The notes below the pieces were generated by a model. The model had not been told where the DNA came from. It did no database searches and saw only the letters and a list, made by a program, of their open reading frames with translations. DNA of 64,000 bases, taken from positions 1,178,001 to 1,242,000 of the forward strand of contig CAJVGD010000046.1 of NCBI GenBank assembly GCA_910890315.1, in the 5' to 3' direction. The position numbers and the translations under genes were made by a program. Positions 13,425 to 53,647 of this stretch are shown in pieces. This DNA is from Serendipita indica DSM 11827 (Eukaryota; Basidiomycota; Agaricomycetes; Sebacinales; Serendipitaceae). Every line of letters begins with the position of its first letter. Positions within the stretch are counted from its first letter, which is position 1.

Positions 13425-13429
13425 TGAGT

Positions 13430-13500
13430 GACGCTAGGGTGATTCGAACACCCGTCTGCTCGGCCACAACGAGCTGATCTAACCACTAATCTATAGCGTC
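13430..13500 (-). tRNA. tRNA-His (anticodon GTG)
   Basis: The 71-nt minus-strand sequence folds as a complete cloverleaf. The acceptor stem is GACGCTA/TAGCGTC with 7 perfect pairs. The D arm is GAT...ATC enclosing AGTGGTTAG. The anticodon stem is GCTCG/CGAGC with loop TTGTGGC, giving anticodon GTG for histidine. The T arm is GGGTG-TTCGAAT-CACCC. There is no intron. CCA is not encoded, and the extra 5' G of tRNA-His would be added by THG1, as in other eukaryotes. Internal A and B box sequences (TAGTGG, GGTTCGAATCACC-like) fall in the usual places. Confidence 0.95.
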
Positions 13501-13878: not shown

Positions 13879-17197
<3,319 letters not shown>

Positions 17198-17249
17198 TCA
17201 GATAGTATTCGAAACTATACAGAACTCAAAGAAGTAACTAAAAGATGCT

Positions 17250-18665
17250 CTACTTTTTGGCAGCCCCAATGCTCCCCAGCTGCTCTTCGACAAGTTCTTT
17301 AAACTCTGCTTTCAGGAGCTCCTCCCGGCGCTGCTTTTCCTCTTTCTGCAGCTTGAGAATGCTCCTCTTCTCCTCGGCACTAATGACCTGGTTCTCCTTG
17401 CGCATTCGGACAGCGTTCATCCTACGATGTCGGCTGCCACTCATCACATAGCCCACATTCTCGTACGCCGCAATCTCATTCGAGGATAAACCAATCTCAC
17501 CACGACGCGGAATACGTGCATTCTCTTGCACAAAGGCTGCCATGGCCGAACCCTCGCCACGGAGAAGAGCGCCTCCGTATTCACGCTCGTCAATCTTGTC
17601 CTTGGCTTTCTGCGGTGGCATCGGCCCGATCGCGTCGTCTTCATCGTCTTCATCCATTTCGATTGGCGCGGCAACCTTGTTTGGTATCGGAGGCGGGGGC
17701 ATGCTCTTTGAGACGGGTTCCTTTTCCACCCACTGGGCTTCGTCGTCCTCTGGTTCATGACGATGTCGATCAAGGGGAGTCTTGGACTTTGAGCGTCGTC
17801 TTTCCTTATCATGGCTCCTTGAGCGTCGATGATCCCGTTCCTCATCTCGAGCTCTTCGCCTCTCCTTTCTCCGCCTCTCTTCCTCGCTCGAATCAGTCTC
17901 AGAAGAAGGAGACGAAGAGCGAGATCGTCTACGTTTCCGCTTCTTATCCTTGTCGCGTCGGTCGTCCTTTCTCCTTCGACTGCTATGCCTGTCTTTATGG
18001 CGTCGCTCACCGGGAGAGAGCGATCGTCGGGGAGGTGGTGGAGAGGGTGGCCAAATGTTGACAGTGGATGCCTCTCGTCGTTTTCTTCGTCTATAGGCCA
18101 TAGTATCAGCACACTGACGCTTCCCCAATCATTACGCTTACTCTTCGAAGAAATCACCCCCACCGCCAGGGTTTCTCTGCCATCCACCATACCCAGAAGA
18201 GTGCCCCCTCGCACCTGAATGAGGTGGTTTGTCGTTTTCTACCCGATGCCGCGCCCAGTTATTTTGCTGATCATCTGTACGGGGCGGGCGTTGCTCTCCA
18301 GAAGCTTCTCGTTGTTTATACGCTTCATAAGACGGACTTGCGCGTCTTTCTCCACTTTTCGAGCGTGCTGTCCGTCGAGGCTCGGGGCTGCCTGACCGAT
18401 CATGGCGTCCTCTTGGTGAACGCTCGCGTCTGCGCTCCGTTGACCGATCTCTCCTATTCCTTGGAGATCGTTCACGTTCTCCATACGGGCGAGGAGACCG
18501 CCGAGAATACGGTGAACGAGATCTTGAACGTCTCGACTCTCTCCTATCGCCGTCTCGCCTCGAATCATAGCCATTCCGATCCCTTCCAGACTCTCGAGTA
18601 TTACTATTCCGTGACGGAGAGTCTTGTGGCACCAGCCCAAGTCTGCTAGGATGAACCTGTGCCAT
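17250..18665 (-). CDS. NKAP: NKAP-like nuclear protein
   Basis: Homologue of NF-kappa-B-activating protein, a conserved nuclear factor that associates with spliceosomal RNA-protein complexes and with transcriptional co-repressors. Two exons (18142-18665 and 17250-18090) encode 454 residues. The N-terminal half is an RS/RE-rich disordered region (RESRRSRSRSPYSRRSPR and similar), typical of splicing factors. The C-terminal SynMuv/NKAP domain is clear: ALLRGEGSAMAAFVQ, RIPRRGEIGLSSNEIAAYE, NVGYVMSGSRHRRMNAVR, RKENQVISAEEKR. It ends in a short coiled helix. The chosen ATG (18665) begins MAQVHPSRLGLVPQ. Downstream neighbour on the same strand is the KDM4-like demethylase, only 67 nt away. Confidence 0.92.
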
Positions 18666-19023
18666 GGGTCGGGTCCAAGGTGGAGAACCTCTGACTTTTT
18701 CATGGTCCAGCGTTTTGAACAAGAAGTGCATTTGCGATAACAAAAAAACTCGTAATACAGCGGGTCATCGTCCATATAGCAAGTCTGGTGGACAAGCTGT
18801 TAGAGAGTAGCAATCGTTCGGGCCGTATGGCAAACCGCTGGACCTGGGTGGTCTTCTAGCCGTCTAGTGGCCCAGCGGATTGCAATAGCAGATCATAATT
18901 CAAACAAACCCCCACTGTACACGCACATTGGGTCCTTTCATTTTTTCTTCGTCTAAGTCCCCCTCCATTTCAATCAAAATGGTTGGGGATTTGCATTTGA
19001 GCGGGTCCGTCGCGGGGAATTTT
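18666..19023. other. Short intergenic stretch between NKAP and the C2H2 gene
   Basis: Both flanking genes are on the minus strand, so this holds the NKAP promoter and the 3' flank of the zinc-finger gene. No gene seen. Confidence 0.5.
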
Positions 19024-21286
19024 TCACCTTCCCTTGTAGCCACTCGAACGAGGGTCGTACTCGAATACGACACCCCCACCTTCATAGCCAGCAGGAGGCG
19101 GAAGCGTATGCCCACCAGCGTTACCACCAGCGTACGACGAGTAGCCACTCGGACTGAAATGTCCACCACTAGGTCCTGGACTTGTCGGACTCGTACTGCT
19201 ATAAGGCGAGGACGAGTATCCCGCGCTGTGGCTACGATCACTCGCGCTCGTGTTCGAAGAGAGGACAGGGTACGGGTTCTCCCCTCGACGATGCGTCGTA
19301 CGTTCGATAACCGTGTCAGGAGGAGGTGGTACGTGGTCCTTTTCACAAGTCAGCGCTCTGCTAGGGGTGGCAAAAGGAAAAGGGTACATACAGCTGGTGG
19401 TGGCCAGGTCAGATGCGGTTTATCCGCAGCGACTGGACATTGCTTGGAGACCACGTGTCGTTTAATGGCATCACGGCGCGACAAATTCTTCCCGCAGTAA
19501 GGGCAAGGATGCGTCTTCTTCACGCCTGCAATGTGAGTGGTTTGGTGACGTTTGAGATCTAGGGGAGGAGGACAACGTCAACAACATCTTTCTCTGAGCA
19601 ACAAACGACTCTACTCACCATGCGTTCTGGCGAAATTCATCCCACAGTCGTCACACAAGAACGGCCGCGCTGCGAACCCGGGACCGGCAAAGGGGTTTGG
19701 TTGTTGGTGTGCAGCAGCGGTCACAACTGGTGTTGGTCCAGAGGGTTGTACTTGTGGCGCCGGTGGAGGAAGGCGAGTCTCAGGTGGGGACGATCGTCCA
19801 TATCTGTGATCCGATCCCATAATGGGTGGAAAGGGGTACAAGGTCACCGCCACACGTACAGTAACGCCACAATTGGAAACCGAGATTGAAAAGCCACCGT
19901 CAGTCAACTGTACAACTGGTCGTGGAAACGAGCAGACTCACCCTTGAGTGGTAGAGTACGCGCTGGATGTTGCTGGAACAGCATAGTCGCCACCACTTGG
20001 TGGCACAAAATGACCTCCAGACGAATTGAGCGGCGGTAATGGCATGCCTGGGACATATGCGCTCGCACTCGCCGTCGACGATGCAGAATGAGAGTGCGAG
20101 TGGGAATGACCATGTCCGTACGGAGATGCGTATTGTGGGCTGAACGGAGTCGAGGGCGAGTCGCTAAGGCTGCTGGGAGTCGTTGGAGAGGACGGAACGT
20201 TTCCGCTCGCGGCAGAACTTGATGTGACCGCACTCAGAGGGTAATCACGTCCATTCGTTGGGAAATAGCTTGCATGCCTGGTGTCGATTGGCGACAGTGG
20301 CGGCGAATCCGAATGTCGGGGTGGTCTATAAACGAAAAAAAATGTCAGTTTCCGATCGCAATCATACGAGGAACAGGTGCAAGATAAGAGCTCTCGGAGA
20401 TTGCCGTCGCGTCATCTAGATAACGATGAAAACGCATCAAACGACGAGCAACGAGAGAAAACGTAAATGTTCAAGGAAAGGCAGCTACACTGGGCGGAGA
20501 TGCTGGCTGTGATCGTTTCGATGGCGAATTTCAGCCGGCGCAGACGGTCGCTGCAAGAGCGCCGAGAATGGTGGCAGCCGCGTCGATGCTATCGTGAAAA
20601 CGAGGCCCAAATGGTTTTCGCGGCGTGGTGGTCGAAATCAAGGGGATCGACGAATAACAAGCCACCGAAAATAAGACCAACGTGCATCACAAATGCCAAC
20701 TCTCGCACAGAGACCCCCCCCCTGTCGAAAGCCAGAACAGGAAAGGAAAACTCACCGTGACGATGCCGACGAATTGTATCCGCCGTAGGAAGGTGCCCAA
20801 GTCGTTTGACCTGGGCCAGCGGCGAATGCCCGGGCAGTGTTAGGCGATGGATAATCCCTGGTATTCGGTTTTTCCTCTTCGTAATATGCATAGCTGCCAG
20901 CCGAAGGAGCATAGGCCGCCGCCTCGTGGGTTCCTGCTGCAGCTGCAGCAGCTGCCGCTGGGTTCGTGTATGACGAATGCGGATAGTAAGGACCAGGGGT
21001 ACCACTGTGGATCATTTGTCCGTTTGCATAAGTCATCTCTAGTGAGGGCGGCGTGTGTGCGTACGCAGTTGGATGATGCTGATATGTCGCCGCTGCTGCT
21101 GCTGCTGTTGCCTTGTCGGTGCGCCACGGAAGATGTGTCGGGAGGCGAGTCGGCGTATTCAGAATCGTAGCCTCCTGCAAATTCAGGAGATGAGCCTACA
21201 GAGCCACGAGAGCGAAGAGGACTGGGGAATCCACCTGCAATCGCCGAACTGGCGTCTCCGACACTTCCGCCTCGACCGTAGTGCAT
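19024..21286 (-). CDS. C2H2 zinc-finger transcription factor
   Basis: Two adjacent zinc fingers lie in the C-terminal half: FLCDDCGMNFARTHDLKRH...H, whose codons are split by an intron at THD, and HPCPYCGKNLSRRDAIKRHVVSKQC, a C2HC-ended finger. Exons are 20756-21286, 19942-20325, 19619-19803, 19392-19558 and 19024-19338; the first intron is 430 nt, unusually long for this window. The N-terminal and middle parts are Ser/Pro/Tyr/Ala-rich, with a Gly-His-Ser repeat (GHGHSHSHSHS) and poly-Ala, typical of activation regions. The first exon has two good frames that meet at a CAG/AGC repeat near 21085-21110. Either a cryptic intron (GTAGGC donor near 21205, ATATCAG acceptor near 21080) or a one-base slip joins them. 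An acceptor-like TGTTGCAG just before the ATG suggests a 5' leader intron. Target genes unknown. Confidence 0.8.
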
Positions 21287-24200
21287 CTCAAACTGCAACA
21301 GCGATGACAACACGGAGCTTGGTATGACCGAAATTTTGGCTATTCTTTTGGGGGTTCAAATTGGAGCAAGGTTTCGGGTGCTCTTCTGTTCAAACAGAGG
21401 AGGAATTAATGGAGATAGACGAATGGTAAGAAGGACATACTGAGCAATGGATGAATAGGAATAGCGTCTAGAGAGCTACCGGCGGCGATGGGTAAGAGCG
21501 GTTGAAAAGCAACCAATGGTCGGGAACAGACCTAGAGAGGATACTTTTTTGGGCACGTTCAAAGGTAGATTTCGACAGATGGACACGAGTCTAAATGTGA
21601 TTTGCCGCGCCGAATCCGGGATGGCTGGTGGGGAGCAATTAGTCCAGAAAAGTCAGTTGTGAACCCGCGCAAGACTCACAAAAAGGCAGCTAGCAAAGCT
21701 AAGGAAGACGAGGAGATGGTGACGGCGCGCGCGCGGGGGAGAGGCGCAACGTAGAGGAATCTACGACTGTAAACGAATGTTTCAGTAACGAGCCGCTTGG
21801 TGGAAGTGGGTGGATGTGTGTGGGTGTAGGTGGGTGTGCGGGATGGCGGGGGGAGGAGCGACAGAGGCGGACGAGGAGCAAGTGGCTGTGGATAGATTGT
21901 GTGCCGACCTAGTGCAGAAAAAAGTCGCAAAGGTGCGAGAATGGCGTCGACGCCAACAAGGGTCAAAAGGGGGGACGAGTGGGCCCGGTGGAATATGTCG
22001 AGTGATACAAGGAGAATGTGTGGTATAAGTACAAAGGAGGTCGTCAAGGATAGACTCGAGGTGGGTTGCAACGAGAAGACCACGCACAAGGGAGCGAGCG
22101 ACCGGAGTGGATCAAGTACGCTGCTTGCTGGCAGGAGGCACTTGCTTTTTAGTTGTTCTGATGGTTGTGTCGTTTTTTAGTGATTTCGATTTGACGATTT
22201 GGGCAAGGGTCAGATGGGCAAGGCATGCACACCCAGGCGGGGCACAGGACGAGAGCGTGACAGCAAATAAGTCGGACCGGGCGAGAATGAGGCGGATCGT
22301 CACGGAATTCAGGTTAGTCCCATTATGCTTCAGCCGAATAACCACACACATGCCTTGCTTTTTAGGAGCGGAGCAGCCACGTTCCGACAACAAGGCTTAA
22401 ACGCGCTGCAAAGACGGGAATCGCGTTGCAATGGTAGACAAAAGTACAGGGGCGATGACAAAGGTCGTCTAGACGGAAAATCATCAGAGAGGAGATGCTG
22501 GTAGCTCCGATACGTACGAGGCGAGGAACAATGAGGGGGGGCGCCTTTGGTAGTTGGAGTAGTAAAGTCACCTCGTCAGGGCTGCACGTCGTCGATCTGC
22601 GGCGCGGGTGTGTCGTTGTACCTCGTGTGTGTACTGCAGGTCTTAGGTCGTCGTTCTGTAATTAAAACCAAGCCGCAAACGAGATGCGCTGGGCTCTGTG
22701 ACAAGCAGGGATCCCGTGTCGCGTTGGTGGTCAAGCCGAGATGGATCGGGGAGTGGCGTCGGATACGACTGGGGGGGGGAGGACAAGAGTTGGCAAGATG
22801 AAAACCCAAAGAGAACACGACTGGAAAATACAAGGAGGCGGGAGGGAACAAGGATGCCAAACAGTGAACGCGTCGAGGGTCCTGAACGAGCCCCTGTCAT
22901 GGGCCCGAAAGGAACACTTATTGATACGTCGATTGGCTGCAATTTGGTCCGCTGCCGTTGGTGCTCTATGCCAGAAGTCTGTCTTCTCGTCTGGTTTGTC
23001 GGTCAGTTCCCGACGGAATGATCATGATGATGATGCCAGTAGTCTTCTTCTACCTTGGCCTTTGTCCGCCTGTCTGCTGCTGTACTGTACTTGTCCCGTA
23101 ATATGTTTACCGCCGTGAAATCAAATCGGCTGAAGTCTTTGTCCCTGGTCAATCAATCGACGGTAAACTTGAATTCGGACGCTGTTGCCCGAGAACATGA
23201 TGAACCACGAGGCTGCCAAAGTTTATTCTCCTGGCACCTTTTTGCTGGGGAAAAGTCTCCCCACAATTCCCTTTGCGCTTTCGTAAGGGGCTTGACGGAC
23301 CCCCAAAAATCCCCAGAGTTTATCTGCGAAGTCGCCCCTCAGAGTATCGTCGCAACCTGCATTAATATTAAAAGACGTTTCTGGCGGCGATTCGTCTAAA
23401 AAGGCAGGTCCCTCCCGATCCTCTGGTGCACGGTACTCTCGGTGCCCGAACCACGCCGTTTGTGGATGTTCGCAGGAGTCCGAAATCTGTTTCAATGAGC
23501 GCCCGTTCCTTACCCAAAAAAATTATACACACGAAATTGAAATCCTTGTACGTCATTAGGAGCTAGACCCGTGCTCTCTTGTGCTCCCATTCTGCGGCAA
23601 GGTTTTTCTGCTCTCGCTAGAACCCTGAGACGAGTACTGTCATCGTCCGAGAAAAGCCACCAAGTTCCGAGTAAGCGCGAGGCGATCGGGGCGGCGACAC
23701 AAGTGGCATTAGCTAATATCCCACGCGGCGGCTGCGAGGTCGCCAGAAGGTGACCAGGAGATTTGCTGTCTGAGAAATCTTTTCTTGTCAATGCACTAAT
23801 GGAATGTTCACCCCACGTTTCAAAAGTGCCCGAGCCAATTCTCGTGCGAGGATACAACTGTAGAGGATGGGGTGATCCTGGTATCCTCCACTCTCCACTT
23901 TTCCCAATCTCAGTCGCGGAGACTGGGAGCAATCGTTTTGCTGAGCCCGTGAGCATGGCAAGCTCAAATGGGCGAGCCAAAATCTGCAGAGCTAATCGAC
24001 GATTCTCGGGACTGAGAAGAGATTATTGCAAACACCTGTCCACGGCATCTTCACAAGCTCCGTGAACAAGATACCGATCAACTCCCTTTCAGCACCTCCG
24101 ACGCGACCTCGTCTCCATCTCGAGTTGGCGTGCACCTCTCTTCTTCGACCTTGTGGCGTCTCCAACCCCTCGCGTCGTGCGCCGCCACGCAGAGATGAGC

Positions 24201-24413
24201 TGATACTGTGCAAGACTCGGACTTTTGGTCACTGAGATAGACCAAGTTCTCGGGATATTTTGCAAGTCCCGTACAGTGGTGATCAACTCGGCGCTGTGGC
24301 TCAACAATATGCCCCCGTTTGTTTAGCCAAATTACTATTTTATTTCAATCGAGATGAACAACAAACAAGAGAAAATTTTCTATCCAAACAAATTTCACGA
24401 GGGAAAGCGTCCA
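21287..24413. other. Long intergenic region upstream of the C2H2 gene
   Basis: About 3.1 kb between the F-box gene (ends 24414, minus) and the zinc-finger gene (starts 21286, minus). It has GT-rich low-complexity sequence at about 21790-21860 and G-rich tracts near 22765-22780. Several open frames of 90-156 codons overlap each other on both strands (for example 23510-23980 minus) without recognisable features. The length suits a complex promoter and a long 5' leader of a regulatory gene. Confidence 0.5.
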
Positions 24414-25991
24414 TCAAACAGAAACCCATTCATCGTAAAGTCTAACTCCGCGGAGAAGCAAATGCTGTGTGCACTCGACTCGGCTCGGGCACTGGTCAAT
24501 GTGCGACGGCTGAACGACGAGCGTCGTCAACCGTGGCATCCACCCACGCTGAACCACAGACACGAGCAACGGGAGCAATGTTCCAGGTGCAGGTGCAGGC
24601 GCGTACCCACCAAGCATCGCCAACGACGACGACGACGACCCAGGCGAGACGGGAGATCCAATTCCTGACCCTCCTCCTCCTCCTCCATACCCGCGATATA
24701 CCCCCGGAGAGGGCTGTGGAGAGAAAGGCTGAGCGCCTCCTATGGCCATACTCCCTGCCTGTGGCGGATCGCACCACACGACAAACGTCCGCAAGTTGGA
24801 ACAATAGCCCAGGCCAGCTTGCACGAGTCCCTCGAGATCCCACCGTTCAAACAAATCGACATGGTTCCGGATACGAAACGTCTCGAGTGCGGGACCAACC
24901 CCTGCCAGCACTCGTCCAAACGTGATCCCACTCACCCGACGACGGATCGTGTTCATCGTCAAATGGCGCAGAGAGAGCATGGACGTGGAGAGTATCCACG
25001 CCAATACATCTCCTGAAAGCGTACAGCGTGCCAATGACAGCTTCGTGAGCTGAAACGACGGGCTCATGCTCGGAATGGGACTGCGATACATTCCACTAGA
25101 CTTGCCGCGTCCACTCCCCATGGCAGGAGAACCGCCCGCTCCATCCGTATTGGGCTCGTAGATATTATCCAGCGTCAGCGACCGCAGCCTCGTCATAGAG
25201 GCCAGGGCAGGCAAGAGGCTGTCGAGAGGCCAGGAACCCCCACGAATCTCAATCGAGCACAGACGGTGAAGAATGTGAGGAAGGAGGAGAAAAGGCGGGA
25301 GTGGAATGGGGACCGACGGCATTGGTCCAGCCAGTGGGTTGGCTAGAGACGTGTTGCGTGTGCCCACCCAATCAAGGCGAAGAGAGTCGAGTACAGGAAT
25401 CGACGACAGTAGCCGGTACACGTCACTTGAGGGCACATGCGGGTGCTGGCGTCGGCTGGTTCTATTGGACATGGCACTGGAGCCTGCCACCGTCTCGTCA
25501 GAGGTGAATGCAATGTCCATGTGGGAAATATAGTCTGATCGAAACGTATTAGTGGATTGGAGTAGGAGAAGAAGGCGATTAAAGTCGTTGGCGGATTCGA
25601 TAGTGTATGAAGTCATGAATGCGCGTCGGGAGAGTACAAGCCATCTACGACAGACGAGTGCCGCATCGAGCAGAGACACGTCGTCGCATAAGACGAAGAT
25701 GCGGGAAAAGATTTCGTTGGGCAAATTGGCGAGGGCCGACTGTGGTCGGAATGACCTGCCGTAGGCCGCTTCTCGGCCACTGCGAATATTGTTATTGTAG
25801 CTGAACATATCTAGAGGTGAAGGTGAACGGGGTGTCGGGATGGCAAATGCGTCGGTGTTGGTTTGCCACACAGCGGTAGGAGAAAAGTGTCGATGTCCAA
25901 GAGGTAGAGCTCCATCCTGGTGGCCTATTATATCATCCGGAGGACCCACACCCCGATAGGCGTATGAAGTGGCTGCCCATGATACGGACAT
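24414..25991 (-). CDS. F-box protein with leucine-rich-like repeats
   Basis: Probable substrate receptor of an SCF ubiquitin ligase. It is an intronless 525-residue frame. The F-box lies at about residues 88-130 (LANLPNEIFSRIFVLCDD, then AALVCRRWLVLSRRAF). Downstream are irregular leucine-rich segments (IPVLDSLRLDWVG, MTRLRSLTLDNIYEP, FQLTKLSLARCTLSGD, MLSLRHLTMNTI) as in basidiomycete F-box/LRR proteins. A glycine/serine-rich insert (GYGGGGGGSGIGSPVSPGS) separates the last repeats from the C-terminus. Basidiomycetes carry hundreds of such genes; the substrate cannot be inferred. Confidence 0.85.
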   Translation of the reverse strand: MSVSWAATSYAYRGVGPPDDIIGHQDGALPLGHRHFSPTAVWQTNTDAFAIPTPRSPSPLDMFSYNNNIRSGREAAYGRSFRPQSALANLPNEIFSRIFVLCDDVSLLDAALVCRRWLVLSRRAFMTSYTIESANDFNRLLLLLQSTNTFRSDYISHMDIAFTSDETVAGSSAMSNRTSRRQHPHVPSSDVYRLLSSIPVLDSLRLDWVGTRNTSLANPLAGPMPSVPIPLPPFLLLPHILHRLCSIEIRGGSWPLDSLLPALASMTRLRSLTLDNIYEPNTDGAGGSPAMGSGRGKSSGMYRSPIPSMSPSFQLTKLSLARCTLSGDVLAWILSTSMLSLRHLTMNTIRRRVSGITFGRVLAGVGPALETFRIRNHVDLFERWDLEGLVQAGLGYCSNLRTFVVWCDPPQAGSMAIGGAQPFSPQPSPGVYRGYGGGGGGSGIGSPVSPGSSSSSLAMLGGYAPAPAPGTLLPLLVSVVQRGWMPRLTTLVVQPSHIDQCPSRVECTQHLLLRGVRLYDEWVSV

Positions 25992-26725
25992 AAGCAGCTA
26001 GGCGGGAACTGATTCCAATTCGGGCAGTGGGCAAATCCGGTCAGTCAACATATCCATTAAATCATATCAGCAAAGAGACAGTCATTACCTTGTTCCTATC
26101 GGCTCTTTGTGACTCGGCTTGTGGTGAGCGGTGGACGTCGAAACGTGTTTATCGCCGTACAGGCAAAACTCGAATGGGGGATTAAGAGGCAACGCCCTAA
26201 ACCGGGTATCAGAAACTAAATATGTAGCCTAGCTTAGGAACTGCGGCGGAGAGCCACTTGTGGGTCAGGATTCGTGGCAAGCGCCGAGCCATATGAGCAG
26301 AGCCCGCATCTGGATAAGCCGGAACCGATGCGAAGAGTGATGAGCAAAGATATTGGGTGAGCCTTTGAGCCACCATTCTGCACGGGGAATTGTTTGTCGT
26401 CGTTTGCAGCCGACGTCCAATCTGTTGCGAAGCTGAAACTGGATTACACCGCGTGATCAGCAGTACACGACTAATAATCACATCTAAGGTGCTTATAGAT
26501 GTCAATAATGGTCGGAGAGTGCGCCATGGGATCGACATAGCCTTTTGCAGGGCCATCAACTGTGTCACTTATGAACAATCAATTGGCTTCACTCAAAAAT
26601 CACCTTTCCGATATTCTGCTAAACGTCACGTATATTCGCTTCGCAGCAAGACGTGGACACACAGCGGGACTCGGGCGGAGTCCATGACTCCCACATGTTT
26701 CCGATCGAAAGGGCGCACCGTGACT
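25992..26725. other. Intergenic, upstream of the F-box gene
   Basis: Between the pseudokinase stop and the F-box start, both minus. Open frames of up to 119 codons carry no recognised motif. No gene supported. Confidence 0.45.
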
Positions 26726-28740
26726 TCATTCGTCGGGAGCCCACTCAAACTCGCCGTCCTCTTCAGACCCGTCAAAGTAGGATATTTCGAGAGCGGCCTG
26801 TGCTTGACCATGATGAAAATTACTGCACCCGTGGTCAGTACGATGAGTCAGACATTGAACAGAAGTGTGATAGTAGAAAGGGGCGGCCCGTCAAAAACCA
26901 CAGTCATGAACATTGTGTGGGTGCCGCCGTTTGATAGACGGGAAAACGCCGAGGTGTGGCTCCTACGAGTCGGAGCCGAGTACTCACCTTGGTCGTGTAG
27001 CAGAACTCCTAGAGCCGTCCTCTCTACTCCCCTCGTGCCCAGCTTGACGGACCATTTTGTGAAAGGAGGCCACTTCGGACATGATCAACTGGTTGATGGC
27101 ATCTTGGCTCGTCTCTAGATACGCGTCGTTCCTGAATGCCTGAATATTGCGTGGGGGAACACGTTAGCACAACCTGTACATATTCAACGATGCCGAAGTC
27201 CCCATTTGGAGACTTTATTCCGCCTCATCGAGGTCCCGGAGTGGCATATCAAAGAGGCTGCCACTTACCATATGTGAAACCGCCTCGTCCGCAGTATTTC
27301 TCCATTGAGAAAAGTAGAGACCATCGAGAAGGTCGGTCGATGCACTTCGCGCCATTGGATCCCAGAGCAATGTTTGATGTATGAGCTGCATTTCCGCATC
27401 ATTCGCTGTCGGGAAGAGTTCCCGAATGGCAGGCGGATTTTGTTTCCGAATGGCTTGAATGTTCTAAAGTTGTCATGAGTTTGTTTCGTCACTCGGCGGT
27501 AAAACGGAGTAAAGCGGCCAATCGCCGTTTGTGGTGTATCACTCTGATCTTCCGTGGGAATCCACTCACTTGGACAGTTTGCGGGGAGGCTATTCGCTTT
27601 AGAACGTCGTCCGACGGTTTTCCGAGTCGTGCCAGGAGTGTCCGTATCTGCCCGGGGAGGCTGCAAGAAGTCTTAGTGAGGCACCGTTGACAGTATGGAC
27701 AACTCAGGTCCTCACTCGTTCCTATCGAATAAGGGGGCACCGTTGAGAAATTCGGCAAGAATACATCCAATACTCCATATATCGACGGCTTTCGATCGGA
27801 GTAAATGAGCGATACACAGGTTTGGGATGGTTGGATGGCTCACCGAAAGAGACCTAGGCCTAGGTCAGCCATTTTCTTCTCTCTAATTGTATTTCTGAAA
27901 CATACCTTTGATACTCCGAGCAGGAGTTCGGGCGCCTTGTAGATGATCGAGCCGCCCGTAGTACACAACGAAGGGTTGGAACCTCTTGCCAAGGAGTTTC
28001 CGTTCCAAGTCTGCGCATTAGAAAAGTCACAGATACGTAGACTGACGTCGGAATCCACTAGGATGTTCGATGGTTGGATAGCCCCATGAATGATTCCAGC
28101 AGAATGGATGTGTCGGACGGCACAGCACAGCTGATACATGAGGTACTGAACATGAGCCTTGGTGAGGTTCTTTCTACTTTTGAAGATTGACGCGAGATTA
28201 GACCGTGGTAGCTCGGTCTTGGATCGTGAGCGAGGTTCTGAAGCGAGGAGGATATAAGACCCACATAGAGATAAACATCTGCAATTCTTCCGTTTTCGTG
28301 GATAGAATAGCTCATATCATAAGCGCATAAAATCTGAACGCCATGAGGAACTAGGTGAGAGAAGCGAGAGAGGTGGACCAACATTTCTATGGACTCGCAG
28401 GTGGCGAAGCATTCTAGATTACAAGTAACAATCAGCCGAGTGGTCGCGGCTGCGTTCTATACTCGCCTAAGTTCTTTCAAACAATCTTTTGCCTTGGACA
28501 ACTACGGATTCATGTGAGCATGAGGACAATCAGGAGGGTTCCTGCACCCACATCAGAGCCGATACCAGTAAATTTTTGCACGCTACAGATCTCCCCGCTA
28601 GCATGTCGAGCAGCAATAACATAACGATGAGATGATGAAGGAAGGGTGGCCACGAAAGTGTAGGCAGCGTCTAGGGTATATGGTTGCCACTCCTTGGGAA
28701 CTGGCGCGAGCGTCTTGGGAGGAGACGACCGATGAATCAT
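26726..28740 (-). CDS. MAP-kinase-derived pseudokinase (Slt2/Mpk1-like fold, catalytic motifs lost)
   Basis: Eleven exons (28552-28740, 28467-28501, 28383-28413, 28265-28333, 27906-28217, 27844-27853, 27716-27788, 27570-27660, 27269-27463, 26988-27139, 26726-26822) sum to 1254 nt, or 417 residues. The fold follows Slt2-type MAPKs throughout: RMLRHLRVHRNILCAYDM, ADVYLYTELPRSNLASIF, AHVQYLMYQLCCAVRHIH, VDIWSIGCILAE, IRELFPTAND, LLWDPMARSAS. Every catalytic element is altered. There is no glycine loop (LPSSSHRYVIAA), and VAIK is SVQK with Gln55 in place of Lys. HRD is HGA (152-154), with LKPSN reading IQPSN. DFG is DFS (172-174), and no TEY/TGY activation motif is present, whereas the APE motif (203-205) remains. 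Exon 6 is a 10-nt microexon, and intron 2 starts with GC. Intact splicing and an uninterrupted frame argue for a functional non-catalytic protein. Confidence 0.85.
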
Positions 28741-29654
28741 TTTAGTGGATGGGGGATGATTGTCATAGTAGAGTTCGGGAGACCTCGAGACCCTTGGTTA
28801 AATGGGGGTTGGATCCGTTGGCATACGATACGCCACCGTCAACGCATGATGAAACGCTGAGAAATTGCCGAGAGCATGCTCCGAGCATGATTCTTCGCGA
28901 GTTCATTTGAGCTTCGCGATGTGAGGTCAGTCGTTCTCGAATGGAAGGAGCTGGGAGCATCCAGTTCCGCACACCCCTTTCTGATACTGACGTATGAGTA
29001 GTTTGTTTTCGAAAAAAAATCGCCGGAAAACATGTGCGTACCAAGGGATTACTTTCAGCGGGGTGCGACGGTATACGGCTATTTCGTCGCAGTCGCTAGT
29101 GGCCGAACGGCTACAGTCGGTCGTTTCTGAATTTTGCCGCCAGAATCCAGCGCTACCGGTCGGGTGTATCCCCATCGCGATCCACGCCGTCCTAAGCACG
29201 CCGCGCTACGGTGGTTCTTTCGGGGGGCTCGTCTGCAACAGGCAACGAGGGGCATGAAAACGCGTAAGATTCGACCATTGCCGACAGTGGCCGCGTCCCG
29301 GAAAGAGCATAATTGCCTGTGAGAAACTCGGGGAGGATTCACAGCTCGGACGAAGAGATTGCCCACGCGGGTGGCCGCTTTGATAGGGAACGGGCGGGCT
29401 TTGGACAAACTCCTGCAAATCAGATGGGCCCAGACGGCTTCGTAGAGGGGTCGTCTTCGTACTAGACTGTGGTCAAGGGCTGACAACTCGGAAACCCCGC
29501 GTGTTCAAGGCTTGTGGGTGGCTTGATGAGCCTAAGCATTGCCATGTAAATTACCGTAACCACGTTGTTGCTAGCCATTACTCCCAGTTTGACAACAACA
29601 TGAAAGAGTCGGGGTTCAAGTTGTTTGTCAGCCACCTTGACCACCAACCACGAA
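28741..29654. other. Divergent intergenic region, pseudokinase and CWC24
   Basis: Holds both promoters for the minus-strand pseudokinase and plus-strand CWC24. An overlapping 135-codon minus frame (29079-29486) is rich in Arg and has no family features, so it is not called as a gene. Confidence 0.45.
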
Positions 29655-30725
29655 ATGGCAGAGTCGACGCCTTCTGTTCCTTTTTTCAAAAAGAGCAAGA
29701 GACCAACAACAACCGCTCGCAAGCGATCTCCAACGGTTGATAATCAAGAATCCACCACCCTCGTCTCAGAAGTCGTCCGCCCTGCACCGCGCACACAGAC
29801 AAAGCTGCTCTCACAAGGGACAAAACGCACAGTATCACAGCGTGATGATTATACATACGACACGAGCGACGGTGTGGACACCAAGGACGGCAGCGCGGTA
29901 GGTGTCAATTGGCAAGGAGCCGGCGCCGTAAAAGATCATGCGGATGCTAAACAAATCTTTGATGGTGAAGAAGCAGAGGAGATGATGGAGCAGAAGCGCA
30001 AGAAGGCCCGTCTAGAGCGCGGCGAGGTCGACGACGTCGTGTCCCCCGATGGTCTTTACCGCGGCCAAGACTCGTACCAGCACAAGCTTGGCCGCAAGGA
30101 CGAGACCATGCTTTCCAAAGCGCAGCGAATTGGTCCTGTCAAGGGGTCGAATACCGTCCGCAATGTCACCATGATTGATTATCAACCAGACGTATGCAAA
30201 GACTATAAAGGTAAGTAATCCCACTCTGTTGTATTTGAATCGATACTTATTTGCATCGCAGAAACCGGGTATTGTGGCTTCGGCGACACTTGCAAATTCT
30301 TGCACGACCGTGGCACTTATCTTCAGGGCTGGCAACTCGACAAGGTTTCATCAAAATCCAATTTTATTACCTTTGCCACCCGGGCGGGTCTAGAGAAGCG
30401 GCAGGACACTGATTCAGACGATTCAGATATCGAAGACATTCCCTTTGCATGTATCCTGTGCCGCAATCCTTACACTGATCCTATCGTCACGAAATGTGGG
30501 CACTACTTTTGTCAGGCATGCGCCATCAAACGCTATGCGAAGAACCCTCGCTGTGCTGCTTGCGGTGCGCCTACCAACGGCATCTTCAACAAGGCGGACA
30601 AGATCATCGCCCGTTCGAAAGCGAAGCGTCTAAAGGAAGCAAAGGCGGCGGGCGAGCTCGAAGGCTCTCAGTCTGACGAAGAGAATGCAGAATTGGAAGG
30701 CGTCGAAATAGAGGGTGGCTATTGA
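29655..30725 (+). CDS. CWC24: Pre-mRNA-splicing factor CWC24 (RNF113 homologue)
   Basis: A spliceosome component that binds the 5' splice site in the activated complex before the first step. Two exons (29655-30210 and 30262-30725, GTAAGT donor) encode 339 residues. A basic, disordered N-terminus is followed by [30 protein letters not shown]-type sequence (positions 30173-30310), a CCCH zinc finger spelled C-x5-7-C-x5-C-x3-H. A C3HC4 RING finger comes next (FACILCRNPYTDP, TKCGHYFCQACAIKR, RCAACGAPT). The order CCCH then RING and the size are diagnostic for Cwc24/RNF113. The ATG giving MAESTPSVPFFKKSKR was chosen because this KK-S-K motif is the conserved start. Confidence 0.95.
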
Positions 30726-30791
30726 ACACTGTATCTACTATGTATCGTTCTCTCATAGGGTATGATCACAAAAAAAGTATAATAATAATAC

Positions 30792-33700
30792 TTATGGCAA
30801 ATCTTCTGGTCCCCATTCGAGCTCAGTCTCCATCACAATAGGATCCATGACGTCTGGATCCCACGCGTAGATAGAAGCAGACGAGCCAGCTTCGGTTCCA
30901 AAATGCGACTGGAGCCAGCTCTTGCTGTATCCGAGATTTGACATTGTCAACTTGCCGTCCTTTTCGACGAGTTCGAACATTGCCTTGCCTATCGTCTATA
31001 TGTCAAACCTAGTCCCAAGAGTAGCTCTCAACTTACGGGGAGAGGGAAACGCATCAATCTTGTCCTCTTTGAGAGCCTTCTCTAGGGCTTCCCACTGCGC
31101 GTCATCCCAGTAGCGAGGGCCAGATTGTATGAGGACTAGATCGTTGTCCACAACTGGAGCGCATACGTCTGGGAATCCAGCGAGATAGTAGCGGCGCGCA
31201 GCCAAGTGGCGAGGTAGCTGGGTCCATGGAAGAAAGTATGATACTTCTCTTCCATTATCGTATATACACGGAATTTGATGATACACTTTCTTTGATCAGC
31301 AAATGTCTGCCCAATGGAATAGGGGCTCACAAAGAATCGCAATCAAACTCTTGATGGACTCTTTTCGACGTCGTAATTTTCGATTCATGCTTCTAAAGGT
31401 TTCCACGGACTGGTGCATCGGTCCCGTTATAGGTTCTCCTTCGAGCGACATGCCTCCAAGCAAAGTTTCGACTTCGGACTGCGTCTCGTCTTGTGAAGGC
31501 CGCAAATCAACGTCGGCGGAGGTCCCACCTCAATTTTCATCATCTCGTCATCGGAAGCTGCCACTCGTGGTCTTTTGACGATTCGGTGATCGAAAACGAA
31601 TGAGCCCTTGCGCTTGGTTTGCCCAGATAGAGTGCCTGGACTGTCGTATTGCATATCGCTGTCCTCATCTTCTGATGTATCGGCCCTGCGCCTTCGTCTA
31701 CCTATTGATGACCCATCGACCAGAGCCATAATGACTCCGTTGCGTGCTCTCATGTCTGGGTCATCCTTTTCTGCGTTGACTACGAGGAATATTTGAGTAA
31801 ATGGCATAAAAACCACGAACAGCTTACTAAAGTCGTCCCAGGTGAACTCGAATCGCTCGTTTTGCTCATTAAAGGCTTGGACAATTGTTTGAGTTGCTTT
31901 CTAGTCGTTAGACCGTGAATACGTCAAATGAAATATAGAGCGTACTTTCATCCCACTTTTCAACAGCAATACCTTCATAATCCAGCAAGTTGACTACCTT
32001 GTCAAGGGTTTCGCCATTCCACCGGATCGCCCAACGGCCAAGAAGTTGTTTGTGAAGTTTGAAGTATGGAAGAAGTTCGAGCGGAAATCCGACTAGACAG
32101 ACTTTGGCTTGATGAAGGAGTTTTGGAAGGGTGTGCCACACAATCTTGTATTTGCCCTGACGAGTTTCATGTGGAGCAAGCTGAACGCCTGCCTCAACTG
32201 TTTTATGATCAGTAGTGTGCATCAATCAGTCCTTCCGTCTTACCGAGCATCTCAGCTAGCTGGTCCATCAACGCCGTGACCTGGGCGTGCCATGATTGAC
32301 CAGAGGTTGTCGGTTTTTGCAGCATTACTTCATCCATGTGGCCGTCTGATTCTGACTCTGCGTCTATCTCTTCCCATTTCCCAATGTCAATGTGCGTGCC
32401 CTTCTCGTCTATTATTTCAAAGACCACATCCCTATCTACAGGAAGAGCTCAGCGGTGAATAAATGTTTCGAATTCAACATACCTAGTGGTCGCTTCTGAA
32501 CTTGAACAAGACCTTGATTCAATACTTTCTGGAGACCATGGGTGGCTTCGGCATTTTGGAGAAAGAATCTCTGCGGCTTCCACGGAAACTTTCTTATTTG
32601 CTCCAAACTTTTCTTCCCTAGGACGAAATTTGCGGGAAACCCAGAGATGTAAACACCCTTGTTCCAGAGCTGATGGGGAATCGTTTCCCATGGAATGTAG
32701 CCCCTCTCTTCGGGATCTTCTTCGATTCCGGCTTGTACTACGAGAATCGTCAGGATGGGCCACTATAATAGAGTCGGATGACGTACGAAGAAGCTTACGA
32801 AGCTTCAGCGGCACTTCTTTGGCATATCGAAAGAGATCGACTTCTTCTTCCTTTGTCTCTTTCTTTCTAGACCTCAAGGTCGACTTAGGCTGTCTTTTGT
32901 TCCCTCCTTCGATCAAAGCTTTGCGCAATGATGCGCTCTGGCTTCGATGTGGTGTGATGGGGGTGGTAGGTGTGATAGACCGGGTATCCCCCCCTTCGTC
33001 GCTGGGTGATACAGACGGTGACATCACGACGGGTGGTGGTCTAATTCGCTGGGCCCGGGCGACCTGTGGCTGCGCTCTCCACTTTACTAGATCGACGGGA
33101 CCATGCTTTGTTATGACTTCCAATATGACATCGCGATCTATAGCCGTAAATGAGAAGTTTCTAATTGAAAATGTGAGCGTACCCTTTGGACGAGGAAGAA
33201 CCTTGATATCACCCTTTTCCGAGGCTTTTAACAAGGCACTCTGGGTCGATGGATTCCAACGTGGAGTCAAATTACCCTTGAGGGCATTTTCGATGACATC
33301 TATGGCTGGGTCACTGCTTCCAAGGAACACACTCGCGGGGATCCCTGTAATATAGAGGCCTTTGGTCCAAAGTTGGTCAGGTAGAGCTCTCCATGGGATA
33401 AAACCCTGCTTCGTCTCCTGTAAGCCGAGGCTTTCTTGCTGCATATCAATGTCTGCGTGGGAGAATGGTGGATCACTTACTTAGCAACTGCCTAAAGGCC
33501 AGCGGTGCCACCACAGCGCTGCCCGGGAAGGGGTTTCCCAAAGAGGGTAACGGAGTGAGAGTAGATATTTGTCTTGGATCCGGCGGACCTGGTTCGTTGA
33601 GAGTCGGCTGCGTCACATGAGCAGACGTGTTCAAGCTCTCTGGGGCAGATGGCTGCTGAACTGTAGCGTTTCCAGGAGCAGAGGTGAATTTCCGATTAAG

Positions 33701-34232
33701 TACCTCTGGTGGATGAGGAGAGGACGCAAATGGAAGGCTTGGGCCGGAGGGTTGCGTATGCTTTGCAATCGTCTTTCTTGCAGGTCGAGGGGCTCTCCAC
33801 CTTGGAATGTCTAGAGTGGTTCCGTCTTCAGAGATTGTCTGAAACACTATATCGCTGCCTGGAAAAGTCAAATCACAAACACATGCTAGTGGCAAGCTTA
33901 CCATCTGGACGCGGGACGAGACGAACCAACCCATCGGTAGAACATGCTTGCTTGAGTAATACTAATGGATTTGGACCAGGAGGTGGCCACTGTAGATATG
34001 TCTCAAGACGCTGCCTCCTTTGTTCGTCGGAAGGTTTGTCGGTGCCGTAGAATATGCTCGTCGGCAAACCAGCAAGGTAGAATCCTTTGTCATAGAGGAT
34101 ATATGGCACAATATTCCATGGAACTCGCTCCTTCTCGTCGGCTTTGATCCCCAACGAGTGAAAAATCTCCTTGAGTTTGAGTGGAACAGTGGTTTTTGGA
34201 TATGGATCTATTCGTCCTCCAGTTGAAGCCAT
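30792..34232 (-). CDS. Orphan protein built of five diverged tandem repeats
   Basis: Not a family I recognise. A repeated module of about 100-130 codons occurs five times on the minus strand. Its core is [V/I]PW-x2-[L/I]P-x2-L-x3-G-x-Y-[L/I]-x-G-[F/I/L]-P. Unit 1 has VPWNIVPYILYDKGFYLAGLP (34060-34125), unit 2 IPWRALPDQLWTKGLYITGIP (33340-33400), unit 3 IPWETIPHQLWNKGVYISGFP (32630-32695), unit 4 IVWHTLPKLLHQAKVCLVGFP (32085-32150) and unit 5 LPWTQLPRHLAARRYYLAGFP (31175-31240). In the first three, a KVLPRP-like segment is followed after an intron by a strand-rich tail (RDVVFEIIDEKGTHIDIGKW; in others DIVFQTISEDG, RDVILEVITKHG). Linkers are basic and Ser-rich (residues near 32700-33000 and 31500-31750). 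Splicing was traced through units 1-3; the join to units 4-5 is less certain and could be a separate gene. Start chosen at MASTGGRIDPYP. Confidence 0.6.
30990..34200 (-). repeat. Five-unit intragenic protein repeat array
   Basis: The five modules of the orphan protein, spaced about 450-900 bp apart. Similarity is visible at the protein level only; the DNA has diverged, so the duplication is old. Units 2 and 3 are the most alike. Confidence 0.6.
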
Positions 34233-35034
34233 CAATACGATCCATCCAGCGCTTGCCAGGCTTCTACACGCTTTTCGGGTGTGGTGGACGAAGTTTAAGA
34301 AACCAACGACGACATTGTTCACACCTTTGGCCACACCAACGCGAGGCCGTCTGTCCACAAAATCAAGAAATTCTATATTTTTGCAAAGAATAGGGCAAAT
34401 AGATTTCACCCAACCTCGACCCAGTGGCAGAGTTCAAAGGGACGCTGTTTCGCGTGTAGTCGGTAGCGTGTGATCGCCCTGAATCGCTCTCTGTGGATAC
34501 TCGAAAGAATAAAGAAGATGAGAAATTGGTTCAGCTAAACATATGGGCTCCCGCGCCGTCGGCATAGCCCAACTCTCATGAACGTTTCAGTCTCGACTGG
34601 TCATGTCCTCTTCTCTTCTCTCGGGCCCAAATACGCTAGTGGTCATACTCGGGGTAACGTTCAGTCCCTATTTATGCCGTCTTTGCCGCACCACTTTATT
34701 AGACAGGGCCCATCTAGCCTTGATAGCATGCTCAAGGGGGTATCACAACTTTTTATTTCCATATTTACGTCCTCCAGAGGTCGTTTTGTGGTATCTGATG
34801 AGTGCCTTGGGACGTGAGAAGGCATTGCCCGCCCCATCTTTGGGCTCACTGGACTGATCAAACTGAATAGAATCTGTGCAAACCCATATCTTCTGGCGTC
34901 AGACGGGCATCGGTGACATTGCCAGTGCACAGCGCGTCCTACTCTATATATTATCTTCGAGTCGACTAGCGTCCTCTTTATCTGCCCCTTCACTTCACTG
35001 TCAACACTTTGGCGAGAACAAAGGCATCCTCGAG
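34233..35034. other. Divergent intergenic region
   Basis: Separates the repeat protein (minus) from the Ser/Pro-rich gene (plus). A TATA-like CTCTATATATT lies at about 34940-34950, roughly 90 nt before the plus-strand start. No gene supported. Confidence 0.45.
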
Positions 35035-36220
35035 ATGAAGTTTCATTTGGAGAATCCACCGCAGCGCACCGTTTCTTTGGAGCGCTCGAAACAGCTCCGA
35101 CGGCAGTCGATGTCCAATCTACCCGGAACACCGACAGACTCGGAGGCAACTGGAACGACTCCAAAAACATGTCCCTCAGTGCTGCCTACTCATTGGCCCT
35201 CGACGAATGTGAGTGATTGGTACCATTGAGGCAAGATGATCCCAACATGGAATAGGAACCGACAGAGATCGTTCCAGGAGATCTCGTCTCAGAGTTGTGT
35301 GTGCCCGAAGTGGAGCGGTCACAGCTTGAGCCATCGTCCTCACACGGCCTCGCACCCAACAGAGCTACACTGGCTACCGTAGATATCAACGTTCCCTTCA
35401 CTCCATCATTCCTTTCCGATGACGGGGACTGGTCTATCACATTCTCCGGGTGCAGCTATGAGCGAAGTCTCCAGCGGTACGTTTTCACGCATATTAACAT
35501 TGTTGTCGTCTTGACTGAACTTACCTCAGAGATGGCTCCATCAGCTCTCTTTTCCGTCAAAGCATACCTCACGACGTGATGTCGTCGCTTGGTAGCCCGG
35601 TCCTTTCTCGACCTACATCCCCTTTTGCATCTTCCCTTTGTACCAAGTCTGAGGAGTTCTTCGGCGTTGAACTCCAGTGGAAGGGTATAAAAAACGCCAC
35701 AACGTCCCGTGTCTCAACGTCGACCACAGTCTACTCAATGAAGAGTGTCAGCCTTCGTAGACAACAATTGTCTCTGAAAAGAAAAGCGCACCAAGGAGCA
35801 ATGAAAAGGCAACAGAGGGCAGGCGTTAGATGCCTCCCACCCGTCCCTCAACAAGAACAGCCAGCCGAACTCCCTCCTTCAAGCGTAATGACGACAATGA
35901 CGACAACGACGACAACAGTGTGGACTCAGCCACAACCAACAACATTCGCCGGAGGTCCAACGAACAGTGCTTCGCCGGTATCATCACCTAGCCATCGTCC
36001 ATTCCCTGCCATTCCTATCCCTCCACGGTCTAAGTCTCGGCCGCTGCCACCTCGCCCTGTGCCTAGCTCGTCTACGACCGTATCGCCAGCGCCAGTTGCC
36101 CCGCTTCAACCTAGACGGCTACTCCTGCCTGGCTTCAACTGCCAATTTTTAGAACCGCCAAGTGTTTCTCCGATCGTTGGGATGGTTAATGGTATGCTTT
36201 TGGAGTCGAGAAGTGGCTGA
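35035..36220 (+). CDS. Ser/Pro/Thr-rich protein of unknown function
   Basis: Three exons (35035-35208, 35256-35476, 35530-36220) encode 361 residues. The sequence is mostly disordered: MKFHLENPPQRTVSLERSK at the start, DDGDWSITFSG in the middle, then a basic stretch (LRRQQLSLKRKAHQGAMKR) that could be a nuclear localisation signal. A Thr tract (MTTTTTTV) and a proline-rich tail with SH3-type motifs (IPPRSKSRPLPPRPVPSS) end the protein. No enzymatic or structural domain recognised. Good GTGAGT and GTACGT donors and preserved phase support it as a gene. Confidence 0.65.
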
Positions 36221-36332
36221 AGCCGGCGTTTGTTCAACTATTCTTATTCTTTCCTATGCACATTTATACTACGCAATGTTGTATGCCAATCTACAGTTTT
36301 TTGTACAAAAGGATATTAACGAAATAACGAGA

Positions 36333-38184
36333 TCACAACCAATGGTCGTATCTTCCCAATTTTGAGACTCGTAAACCGCCTTCGAGACCCGCACGGCCGG
36401 AAGCCCCACTGGCCTCCCAGTCTGCCATCTCCACCACATCTTCATCATAGGCAACCTGGATATGCAAGTCACCATGATGAGATCCCCGCATTAGCCACCA
36501 GGGTAGCCTTGACCAAACACGGTGAAGTCTACTACTTTCACCTGCAGTCCCTCGAGTGGGTTCGCTTTCTTCACTCTGTAGGCGATCAAGATCCTTGTGC
36601 ACCTGAGGATGAACCTCAGGCTCTGGAAGACCGTGCAATACACTAGGCGCCTCGTCCGCTTCAGTCTCTTCTCCGGAGAGATGGCTGTCAAACTGGCTCG
36701 CCGCGTTGATATATACAGACTTATTATATTTGCTGGTAGTTCGATGCTTAGCACTGTCGCCTTTATCGCCGCTCTTTGGTCGTGAACTGCTCGTGCCAGC
36801 GGTCATGGCAGGGAAACTTCGAAGTGGGATGGAGGTGGTCCATGAGGTTCACGACTTCGAACACTGGATATGTTCACTTGCTCGTGAGCTCGTTGAGCTG
36901 CGGGTAGCGCCGTCGTTCGGATTCCTGAGATATACTCTGGCGCTGACTGAGTTCCGGTCGTTCGTGTGCCGGAGAAGGAGCTTGAGAGGAAGTGCTGAAA
37001 GGCCTGGGAAGATTTTACCCCTAAAAGAAGGCGCGAAGTGGCCACTTGGCACATTATCCATGTCGACAGGAGCGGAACAGAGAACCATTTAAGATCCAGA
37101 TACCGCCATGTCTGCAGAGAGTTGAGAGTGATACAACCAGTCGTGACAAGTACCTACGACGAAGGATAGAACGAATACTGTCAACGTGAATGCAAAGTAG
37201 AAAATGCCATGTCGGTACATGATGGCTAAGAGGGGCGTTTGTGCAGACCTTTTCAAGGTTAGGATAGTTCAAATATCAACGAGGACATACCTCGGTGTCT
37301 TTAGGGACTTGAAGAGCAAAAAGAGGAAGAATATGGCATGCTCAGCTACATTGGGTAACCAATTCTCCCAGATTCGTGGCAGCACGGCATAACAGACATT
37401 TCCCACGGGAAGCACATGGATGGCTGTGAAATCCAGTCAGACAAGCCTAAGTATATGGTCGGACAACCGACTCTCAAGCTTCAAGAAGAAATTCTTGACG
37501 AGCAATAGCATGGCAATAGCAAGCGCTATTCCCCATACAAGGAGAAGGAGAGTGAATGCTGTTCGAGTGATCTCCTCCAAGGCGTACAAACTGACCAACG
37601 GTATCAGTGATGAAGAGACAGACGCGAAGCCCATACCGAAATGTCACTATCAAGGACACCAATGAAATACCTATGACCTGTGTTACATCTAGAATAGATA
37701 GCCATATGCGACAGCTGGGTTACCTCTTAGCAGGCGCTTTGGTCATGGGAAATGCTCACAACTGGGGAGACATGTCAGTTTCGGTGACGAATAGTAATGT
37801 TAGCACGGGAACATACATTATCTGTCAAACCGGCTGCACGTCCGGTGAATGCTACAAGCCGTGATTAGCAGAGAAAAGGCGTGACTCTGGAGAACATACT
37901 CCAGAGATTGATGGAGATGATGAGAGGAGAGATATAGCGGTTGAAGAAGAAGAGTCCCTTGACAAGGGTGAACTTCGCACTCCAGACGTATCGAACCTAG
38001 TTGTCGGAGATGAGCTAGAATGGCGATACCTCGCATAACAAACCTCATCTCCAAAGGTAAGGAGCACATCCCATATGAGGAGAGTAAATGCAGAGTACGA
38101 AAGGCCCTTGCCGATCTGATAAGCCATGTAATAATCCTTGAAATGTCCCAGGATGTCCAGCGGTGCAGGGATGGGCCGGCTCAT
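36333..38184 (-). CDS. DUF6533-type heptahelical membrane protein (copy A)
   Basis: Member of the basidiomycete DUF6533 family of seven-helix membrane proteins of unknown function. The N-terminal exon (MSRPIPAPLDILGHF ... YSAFTLLIWDVLLTFGDE) joins across an intron to VRYVWSAKFTLVKGLFFFNRYIS, the DUF6533 signature (W-D-x-LLT...F-x-NRY). Later helices are visible (TAFTLLLLVWGIALAIAML near 37560-37510), then SRLLLGVKSSQAF after helix 7, a long polar cytosolic tail with RLPWWL, and the terminal KLGRYDHWL. Not every internal exon was joined, so integrity of the middle part is not proven. Tandem with copy B upstream on the same strand, 340 bp apart. Confidence 0.75.
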
Positions 38185-38524
38185 GTCGAGCAGACCTTGT
38201 AAGAAAAGTTCTGCTGCGCTTCGTTTGCCGTGTCTCTCCGGGCGTAGGTAGACCGCGTGCAAGGGCTCAGCGTCGGCTGTTGGTGGAAAGGTCCAAGATC
38301 ACAAATGACACAGCATATTCTCCGAGTATTAATACTCACGTAGTTTAATGCTTGCGAACCCCGTGAGTCGGTTACCAGGTTGACATTGGCAGGCTGACAG
38401 TTTCGTGCCCTGTTCAGCTTTTGCTCTAAACAACCAGATGGCCTCTGATTCTAAGTTTGGGGAACTCCCTTTGATAGAACAGCTGATCGGGGATCAATCA
38501 AAGAGGGTTGCACGACAAAAAGGA

Positions 38525-53555: not shown

Positions 53556-53589
53556 CATTCATCGGTCGTCCGAGACGAACCATATAAAA
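53556..53589 (+). promoter_or_regulatory. Shared CGG-N4-CCG element and TATA box, SDR copy 3
   Basis: CATTCATCGGTCGTCCGAG (53556-53574), the same 19 bp as before copy 2, then ATATAAAA (53582-53589), 59 nt before the ATG. The spacing between element and TATA matches copy 2 to within a few bases. Confidence 0.65.
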
Positions 53590-53647
53590 CGGACAAGAAC
53601 CTGAGCACTTTTCACTCATCATTCCATCCTCAGCACCCATAGAAGCC

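Follow-up and report, generated by a model that had tools for sequence, protein, structure and literature searches.

The locus and its gene model

The window, by which we mean the whole 64,000-nt stretch of DNA that was analysed, carries on its minus strand a gene that starts at 28740 and whose stop codon ends at 26726. Its 11 exons join into an open reading frame of 1254 nt (417 codons plus stop) with no internal stop codon or frameshift. The protein, called the pseudokinase below, has a sequence like that of MAP kinases (MAPKs) of the Slt2/Mpk1 type, and its best match among solved structures is MPS1, the MAPK of that type from the rice blast fungus. A preliminary description of this DNA had proposed 11 exons that join in phase without a stop to encode 417 residues, and assembly of the exons reproduced this exactly. 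The gene is laid out as follows.

26726-28740, minus strand: pseudokinase gene, 11 exons, 417 aa, Slt2/Mpk1-like MAPK sequence (spliced model; Pfam Pkinase 3.9e-36, MPS1 5e-62)
28552-28740, minus strand: exon 1, with the start codon, the glycine-loop region (LPSSSHRY) and β3, in which Gln55 stands for the ATP lysine (codon 28578-28576)
28467-28501, minus strand: exon 2, upstream of the GC-AG intron
28414-28466, minus strand: intron 2, GC-AG (GCGAGT...CTAG), the sole non-GT donor among the ten
28383-28413, minus strand: exon 3 (MLRHLRVHRN)
28265-28333, minus strand: exon 4 (ILCAYDM...VYLY, similar to ITCLYDM...TYLY in MPS1)
27906-28217, minus strand: exon 5, reaching APE, with HGA (28088-28080), DFS (28028-28020), CTT replacing TxY (27965-27957) and APE (27935-27927)
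27844-27853, minus strand: exon 6, a 10-nt microexon flanked by introns of 52 and 55 nt, with a gap-free join to MPS1
27716-27788, minus strand: exon 7 (AVDIWSIGC), αF, Asp218 retained
27570-27660, minus strand: exon 8, the region known in MAPKs as the MAPK insert
27269-27463, minus strand: exon 9, with Arg309 retained, the first common-docking Asp lost (N326) and Asp329-Glu330 retained
26988-27139, minus strand: exon 10, C-terminal MAPK segment (AINQLIMSEVASFHKMVR)
26726-26822, minus strand: exon 11, coding for the acidic C-terminal tail and ending in the stop

The introns are 47 to 165 nt long, and introns so short and densely spaced would suit a gene of a filamentous basidiomycete; nine of the ten are GT-AG. 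The other is intron 2 (28466-28414), which is GC-AG; such introns are normally spliced when the flanking consensus is strong. An alternative GT lies four bases inside intron 2, but its use would shift the reading frame of exon 3 and lead into a stop, so that the GC donor is needed for the frame to stay open. The donor of exon 1 was placed at GTGGGT (28551), which keeps the frame and gives a gap-free join to MPS1, whereas a donor 14 bases earlier would be out of frame. On the opposite strand, a stop-free frame of 249 codons (26369-27118, plus) runs antisense across the 3′ end of the gene and bears no sign of being a gene itself.

Conserved domains recognized by Pfam flank the gene on both sides:

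15514-17000 (about 15.5-17.0 kb), minus strand: JmjC and JmjN domain pieces (Pfam)
17250-18128, minus strand: open reading frame with a strong Nkap C-terminal domain (Pfam, 6.2e-46), adjoining the JmjC and JmjN pieces
24414-25997, minus strand: F-box-like open reading frame (Pfam)
About 30.26-30.58 kb, plus strand: CCCH and RING matches (Pfam)

The Pfam scan covered 29 of the 42 open reading frames of at least 170 aa in the window, the three plus-strand frames of 29600-39500 and the three minus-strand frames of 16600-26500. The idea of a transposon-derived neighbourhood was rejected, given that in the frames covered the scan found no transposon domain at E ≤0.01 and found JmjN/JmjC, Nkap, F-box, CCCH and RING domains instead. 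A second MAPK was not found by tblastn within the window, which returned the gene itself and four matches at chance level (E 3.7 to 9.9). Further away, the open reading frame at 44056-45402 has a partial match to the G-protein α subunit (3.5e-7; 30.1 bits against a cut-off of 48.8; profile positions 32-91 of 333), and is perhaps one exon of a Gα gene or a fragment. Two short-chain dehydrogenase frames, at 53588-54268 (plus) and 58429-59007 (minus), have opposite orientations and about 4 kb between them. The only tRNA found in the window is a tRNA-His (GTG) at 13428-13500 (minus), and a search of the window for RNA families gave nothing besides it.

Kinase motifs and relationship to Slt2-type MAPKs

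The pseudokinase was compared with other MAPKs at 128 reference columns, defined as those identical in MPS1 and in two p38-type sequences, namely 6qyx (a p38/ERK chimera) and 3gc9 (MAPK11 as crystallised), of which only the aligned stretches were used. The pseudokinase keeps 68 of these columns and has lost the other 60. The glycine loop of active MAPKs is lost, this region reading LPSSSHRY, and the β3 ATP lysine is replaced by glutamine (K55Q). HRD has become HGA at 152-154, where His152 is kept but the substitutions R153G and D154A have occurred, and the catalytic-loop lysine is also gone (K156Q). In the activation loop TxY is replaced by CTT at 193-195 (T193C, Y195T; local sequence CTTGGSII), so that the dual phosphorylation site is gone and no tyrosine is left, and the P+1 loop VATRW is replaced by GGSII. 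The first common-docking aspartate is lost as well (D326N). The roles of these residues are established in the kinase field, and judged by them the losses would affect catalysis, switching and substrate reading.

The residues kept are the αC Glu73, His152, Asn159, the DFG aspartate (Asp172), APE at 203-205, the αF Asp218, Arg309, Asp329 and Glu330, a set of which much has a known part in stabilising the kinase fold. The position of the former DFG glycine depends on the alignment. In the HMMER alignment DFG corresponds to a contiguous DFS at 172-174, with the aspartate kept and the glycine changed to Ser174, while MAFFT places an insertion after DF, and Ser183-Leu-Ala-Arg then represents the former Gly-Leu-Ala-Arg. 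A contiguous DFG is absent under both.

The missing glycine loop, Gln55, HGA at 152-154, DFS at 172-174 and the lack of TxY had all been noted in the preliminary description; Gln55, HGA and DFS were found at exactly the positions it gave. Its term "complete pseudokinase" holds for the catalytic and switching residues, which are gone, but is slightly too strong, given that the DFG aspartate, Glu73, Asn159, APE and Asp218 remain. A pseudokinase is defined as lacking at least one of the ATP lysine, the HRD aspartate and the DFG aspartate; here the first two are lost and the third is kept. Phosphotransfer is very unlikely on this sequence, because neither the ATP lysine nor the catalytic base is left, and the phospho-switch has disappeared along with the substrate loop.

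In a search of solved structures, the match to MPS1 is colinear over residues 19-376 of the pseudokinase, and its E value (5e-62), like that of the Pfam kinase domain, is far beyond chance. Three MPS1 chains head the best 60 of the 1738 matches with 213.6-213.8 bits, compared to 150.4 bits for the best other kinase among them. The same preference is seen when pieces of the protein are searched alone: residues 57-149 match MPS1 with 66 bits and the next structure with 46, and residues 271-417 match MPS1 with 28.9 bits and the next best with 22.2. The identity to MPS1 is 34.6% (120 of 347 aligned residues). A more stringent comparison used the 83 columns at which both p38-type sequences agree and differ from MPS1. 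At these the pseudokinase has the MPS1 residue in 21, the p38 residue in 18 and neither in 44 (p 0.75), a split that favours neither subfamily. The protein matches 13 NCBIfam kinase families, all far below their cut-offs. The earlier assignment to a MAPK sequence of Slt2 type is borne out in that MPS1 is the best match for the whole protein and for two separate pieces. The case for calling it Slt2-like is good but not decisive, the relatives compared being those with solved structures.

The reading that we prefer, although tentatively, is that the protein is a catalytically dead Slt2-derived MAPK paralogue kept for its fold, which most likely docks other proteins without catalysis, within the wall-integrity pathway or close to it. 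The retained MAPK body, of which residues 57-149 are a part, would bind the partners of the active Slt2 or vie with it for them; these might be the MAPKK, phosphatases or transcription factors. Docking would use the region of the MAPK docking surface, the partly retained common-docking acids and the C-terminal segment. The loss of one common-docking aspartate weakens this docking idea. By analogy, the protein could reasonably be a scaffold or a decoy. In this proposal we infer that the gene is expressed, that its protein folds and has binding partners, that another locus of the genome encodes an active Slt2, and the role itself.

The retained protein might alternatively have left wall-integrity signalling for another task, such as that of a structural adaptor in an unrelated complex, in which case its likeness to Slt2 would reflect ancestry only. 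We regard this as somewhat doubtful, but it is the strongest of the alternatives. Features by which a MAPK meets its pathway partners are gone, namely TxY, the P+1 loop and one common-docking aspartate, the first, and an identity to MPS1 of just 34.6% would fit such a change of role. The C-terminal tail also fits: its last 26 residues contain nine acidic residues, no basic residue and four aromatics, and the MPS1 stretch compared stops at residue 365 of 408. We offer as a suggestion only that the tail resembles an acidic activation segment. On the other hand residues 57-149 and 271-417 are still closest to MPS1 among solved structures, and nothing points to another partner.

Constraint, decay and the reliability of the model

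Neutral decay was simulated by taking MPS1 as a proxy for the ancestor and running it down to a set identity, with indels and splice sites left out. At 70, 60, 53 and 34.6% identity the runs acquired on average 5.1, 6.8, 7.9 and 11.2 stop codons, and the numbers free of stops were 5, 4, 0 and 0 of 2000 runs each. The value of 53% was chosen because that share of the 128 family-invariant columns is kept, and it is at these columns that the ancestral residue can be named with most confidence. At this level every one of the 2000 runs contained at least one stop, in agreement with the preliminary description, which had considered an intact frame unlikely for a decaying copy.

The 60 replacements at the invariant columns are also conservative. 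Their mean BLOSUM62 score is -0.07, compared to -0.68 (s.d. 0.21) under neutrality, and was equalled in 11 of 5000 neutral runs, a value that is somewhat optimistic in that the alignment itself favours similar residues. Replacements scoring above 0 make up 40%, against 26% expected (p 0.013). Because there is no stop, the replacements are conservative and the splice ends are intact, the protein was probably under constraint for most of its divergence.

Codon usage is uninformative about the present. The G+C content at third codon positions (0.505) equals that of the introns (0.51) and falls inside the range of eight other open reading frames of the window (0.443 to 0.580), not all of which have been shown to be genes, and therefore codon usage lends no support to current coding constraint.

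The equality with the introns is one reason to consider that the gene was for a long time a functional pseudokinase, or else a weakly constrained paralogue, and has since begun to decay or even fallen silent. The GC donor in intron 2 and the retention of only 68 of the 128 invariant columns point the same way. We nevertheless consider it unlikely. The frame runs through 417 codons without a stop or frameshift, all 20 splice ends are GT or GC and AG, the neutral runs were almost never stop-free, and a GC-AG intron with a strong flanking consensus should be spliced normally.

It is far less probable that nucleotide binding, or some residual or unusual catalysis, persists. This would have to rely on Asp172, Asn159, Glu73 and Lys56, the last of which is present next to Gln55, and it is true that some proteins classed as pseudokinases have proved to be active. 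However, the glycine loop, Lys55, Asp154 and Lys156 are lost together, and the P+1 substrate loop is replaced.

The exons were first placed by eye with the help of known MAPK motifs, including those of yeast Slt2, and were afterwards checked against the MPS1 sequence; the motif letters used for this first placement entered no computation. Within the stretch aligned to MPS1 all nine junctions are gap-free, as judged from 12 columns around each. The tenth junction sits in the C-terminal tail, past the aligned stretch, hence the comparison of nine. It is scarcely credible that the model is partly wrong, with another N-terminus or a mis-assigned intron making artefacts of some of the losses: the exons were indeed picked by eye so as to join in frame, one adjustment was made to the donor of exon 1 and intron 2 requires a GC donor, but the nine testable joins are all gap-free and the lost motifs at 55, 152-154, 172-174 and 193-195 lie within exons 1 and 5, away from junctions. 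Sequencing error or misassembly was likewise rejected as the origin of the lost motifs, since these consist of many separate substitutions without a frameshift.

Contig collections were also searched. The pseudokinase had no match in a viral collection, which lies outside the fungi and is silent on fungal orthologues. MPS1 as query gave two stretches in viral and 15 in prokaryotic contig collections, none of which was confirmed by tblastn, and this says nothing about fungi.

Comparison with yeast Mlp1 and other MAPKs

The preliminary description knew of no fungal MAPK pseudokinase of this type. This did not survive comparison with the literature, where a dead Slt2 paralogue has been described in yeast. 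According to published accounts, Mlp1/Kdx1 of S. cerevisiae is a catalytically inactive pseudokinase paralogue of Slt2/Mpk1 that acts non-catalytically in the wall-integrity pathway (PMC9106771, PMC8836261, PMC4850913). Mlp1/Kdx1 is also described as activating Swi4-dependent transcription together with Slt2 and without catalysis, binding the phosphatases Msg5 and Sdp1, and taking part in the export and control of cyclin C (PMC9106771, PMC8836261, PMC3898958, PMC4850913, PMC3827324).

The likeness to Mlp1/Kdx1, as drawn from these published descriptions, is that of a fungal Slt2-type MAPK without catalysis, for which a non-catalytic role is the simplest model. A gene with ten introns is unlikely to have come from Saccharomyces. 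The Mlp1 site phosphorylated by Mkk1/2 is the activation-loop tyrosine, and the K-G-Y protein of S. cerevisiae mentioned next is presumably Mlp1. A K-G-Y activation-loop motif is reported for S. cerevisiae in a fungal MAPK survey (PMC4769017), which is consistent with the finding that Mlp1 is still phosphorylated by Mkk1/2, to give "monophosphorylated Mlp1" (PMC9106771). The present protein differs in having CTT, no tyrosine and no P+1 loop. Without TxY and the P+1 loop it would not be switchable by a MAPKK at that site, and since these are missing its control, unlike that of yeast Mlp1, would be constitutive or set by expression level. Active Slt2/Mpk1/MPS1 proteins share with it the best solved match, the colinearity over residues 19-376 and the preference on two pieces, and differ in that its catalytic and switching motifs are degraded and its identity to MPS1 over the 347 aligned residues is low. 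Tribbles and other eukaryotic pseudokinase scaffolds are described as also using the kinase fold as a binding platform; scaffolds of the Tribbles type are not MAPK-derived.

Work on MAPK pathways usually takes the phosphorylated TxY loop as its readout. In the survey, which covered 173 species, the TxY motif varies among fungi, the nine new motifs listed all retain the tyrosine, and basidiomycetes often have large numbers of MAPKs, Laccaria amethystina as many as 20; among the 73 species listed as Basidiomycota, 72 show TEY alone or together with TGY, and the remaining one has SDY in addition (PMC4769017). The CTT loop of the pseudokinase falls outside the motifs listed there, and neither "pseudo" nor "HRD" occurs in the survey's main text (PMC4769017). 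A survey based on the TxY motif would miss such a protein. Among the literature matches listed, which include PMC3591445 and PMC12394161 and mostly leave subscription papers outside their scope, no basidiomycete MAPK pseudokinase was found; the phrase "MAPK pseudokinase" was not found in the literature searched, which was mostly open-access.

A bolder extension of the docking proposal is that filamentous fungi, probably basidiomycetes, possess a conserved lineage of MAPK pseudokinases without a switch, to which this gene would belong and which would have arisen independently of Mlp1. Its members would be without catalysis, phospho-switch and substrate loop, and would serve as a constitutive docking body tuned by expression, with the acidic tail possibly acting in transcription. 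This extension seems to us doubtful at present.

The pseudokinase looks like the same idea as Mlp1, further disarmed, and apparently in a different fungal group. A second and more disarmed MAPK of wall-integrity type in a fungus other than budding yeast would mean that fungi have arrived more than once at dead MAPK copies as a solution, and would allow the non-catalytic function of the fold to be studied without catalysis or a switch. It also carries a warning, namely that recognition of fungal MAPKs by TxY will overlook genes of this kind.
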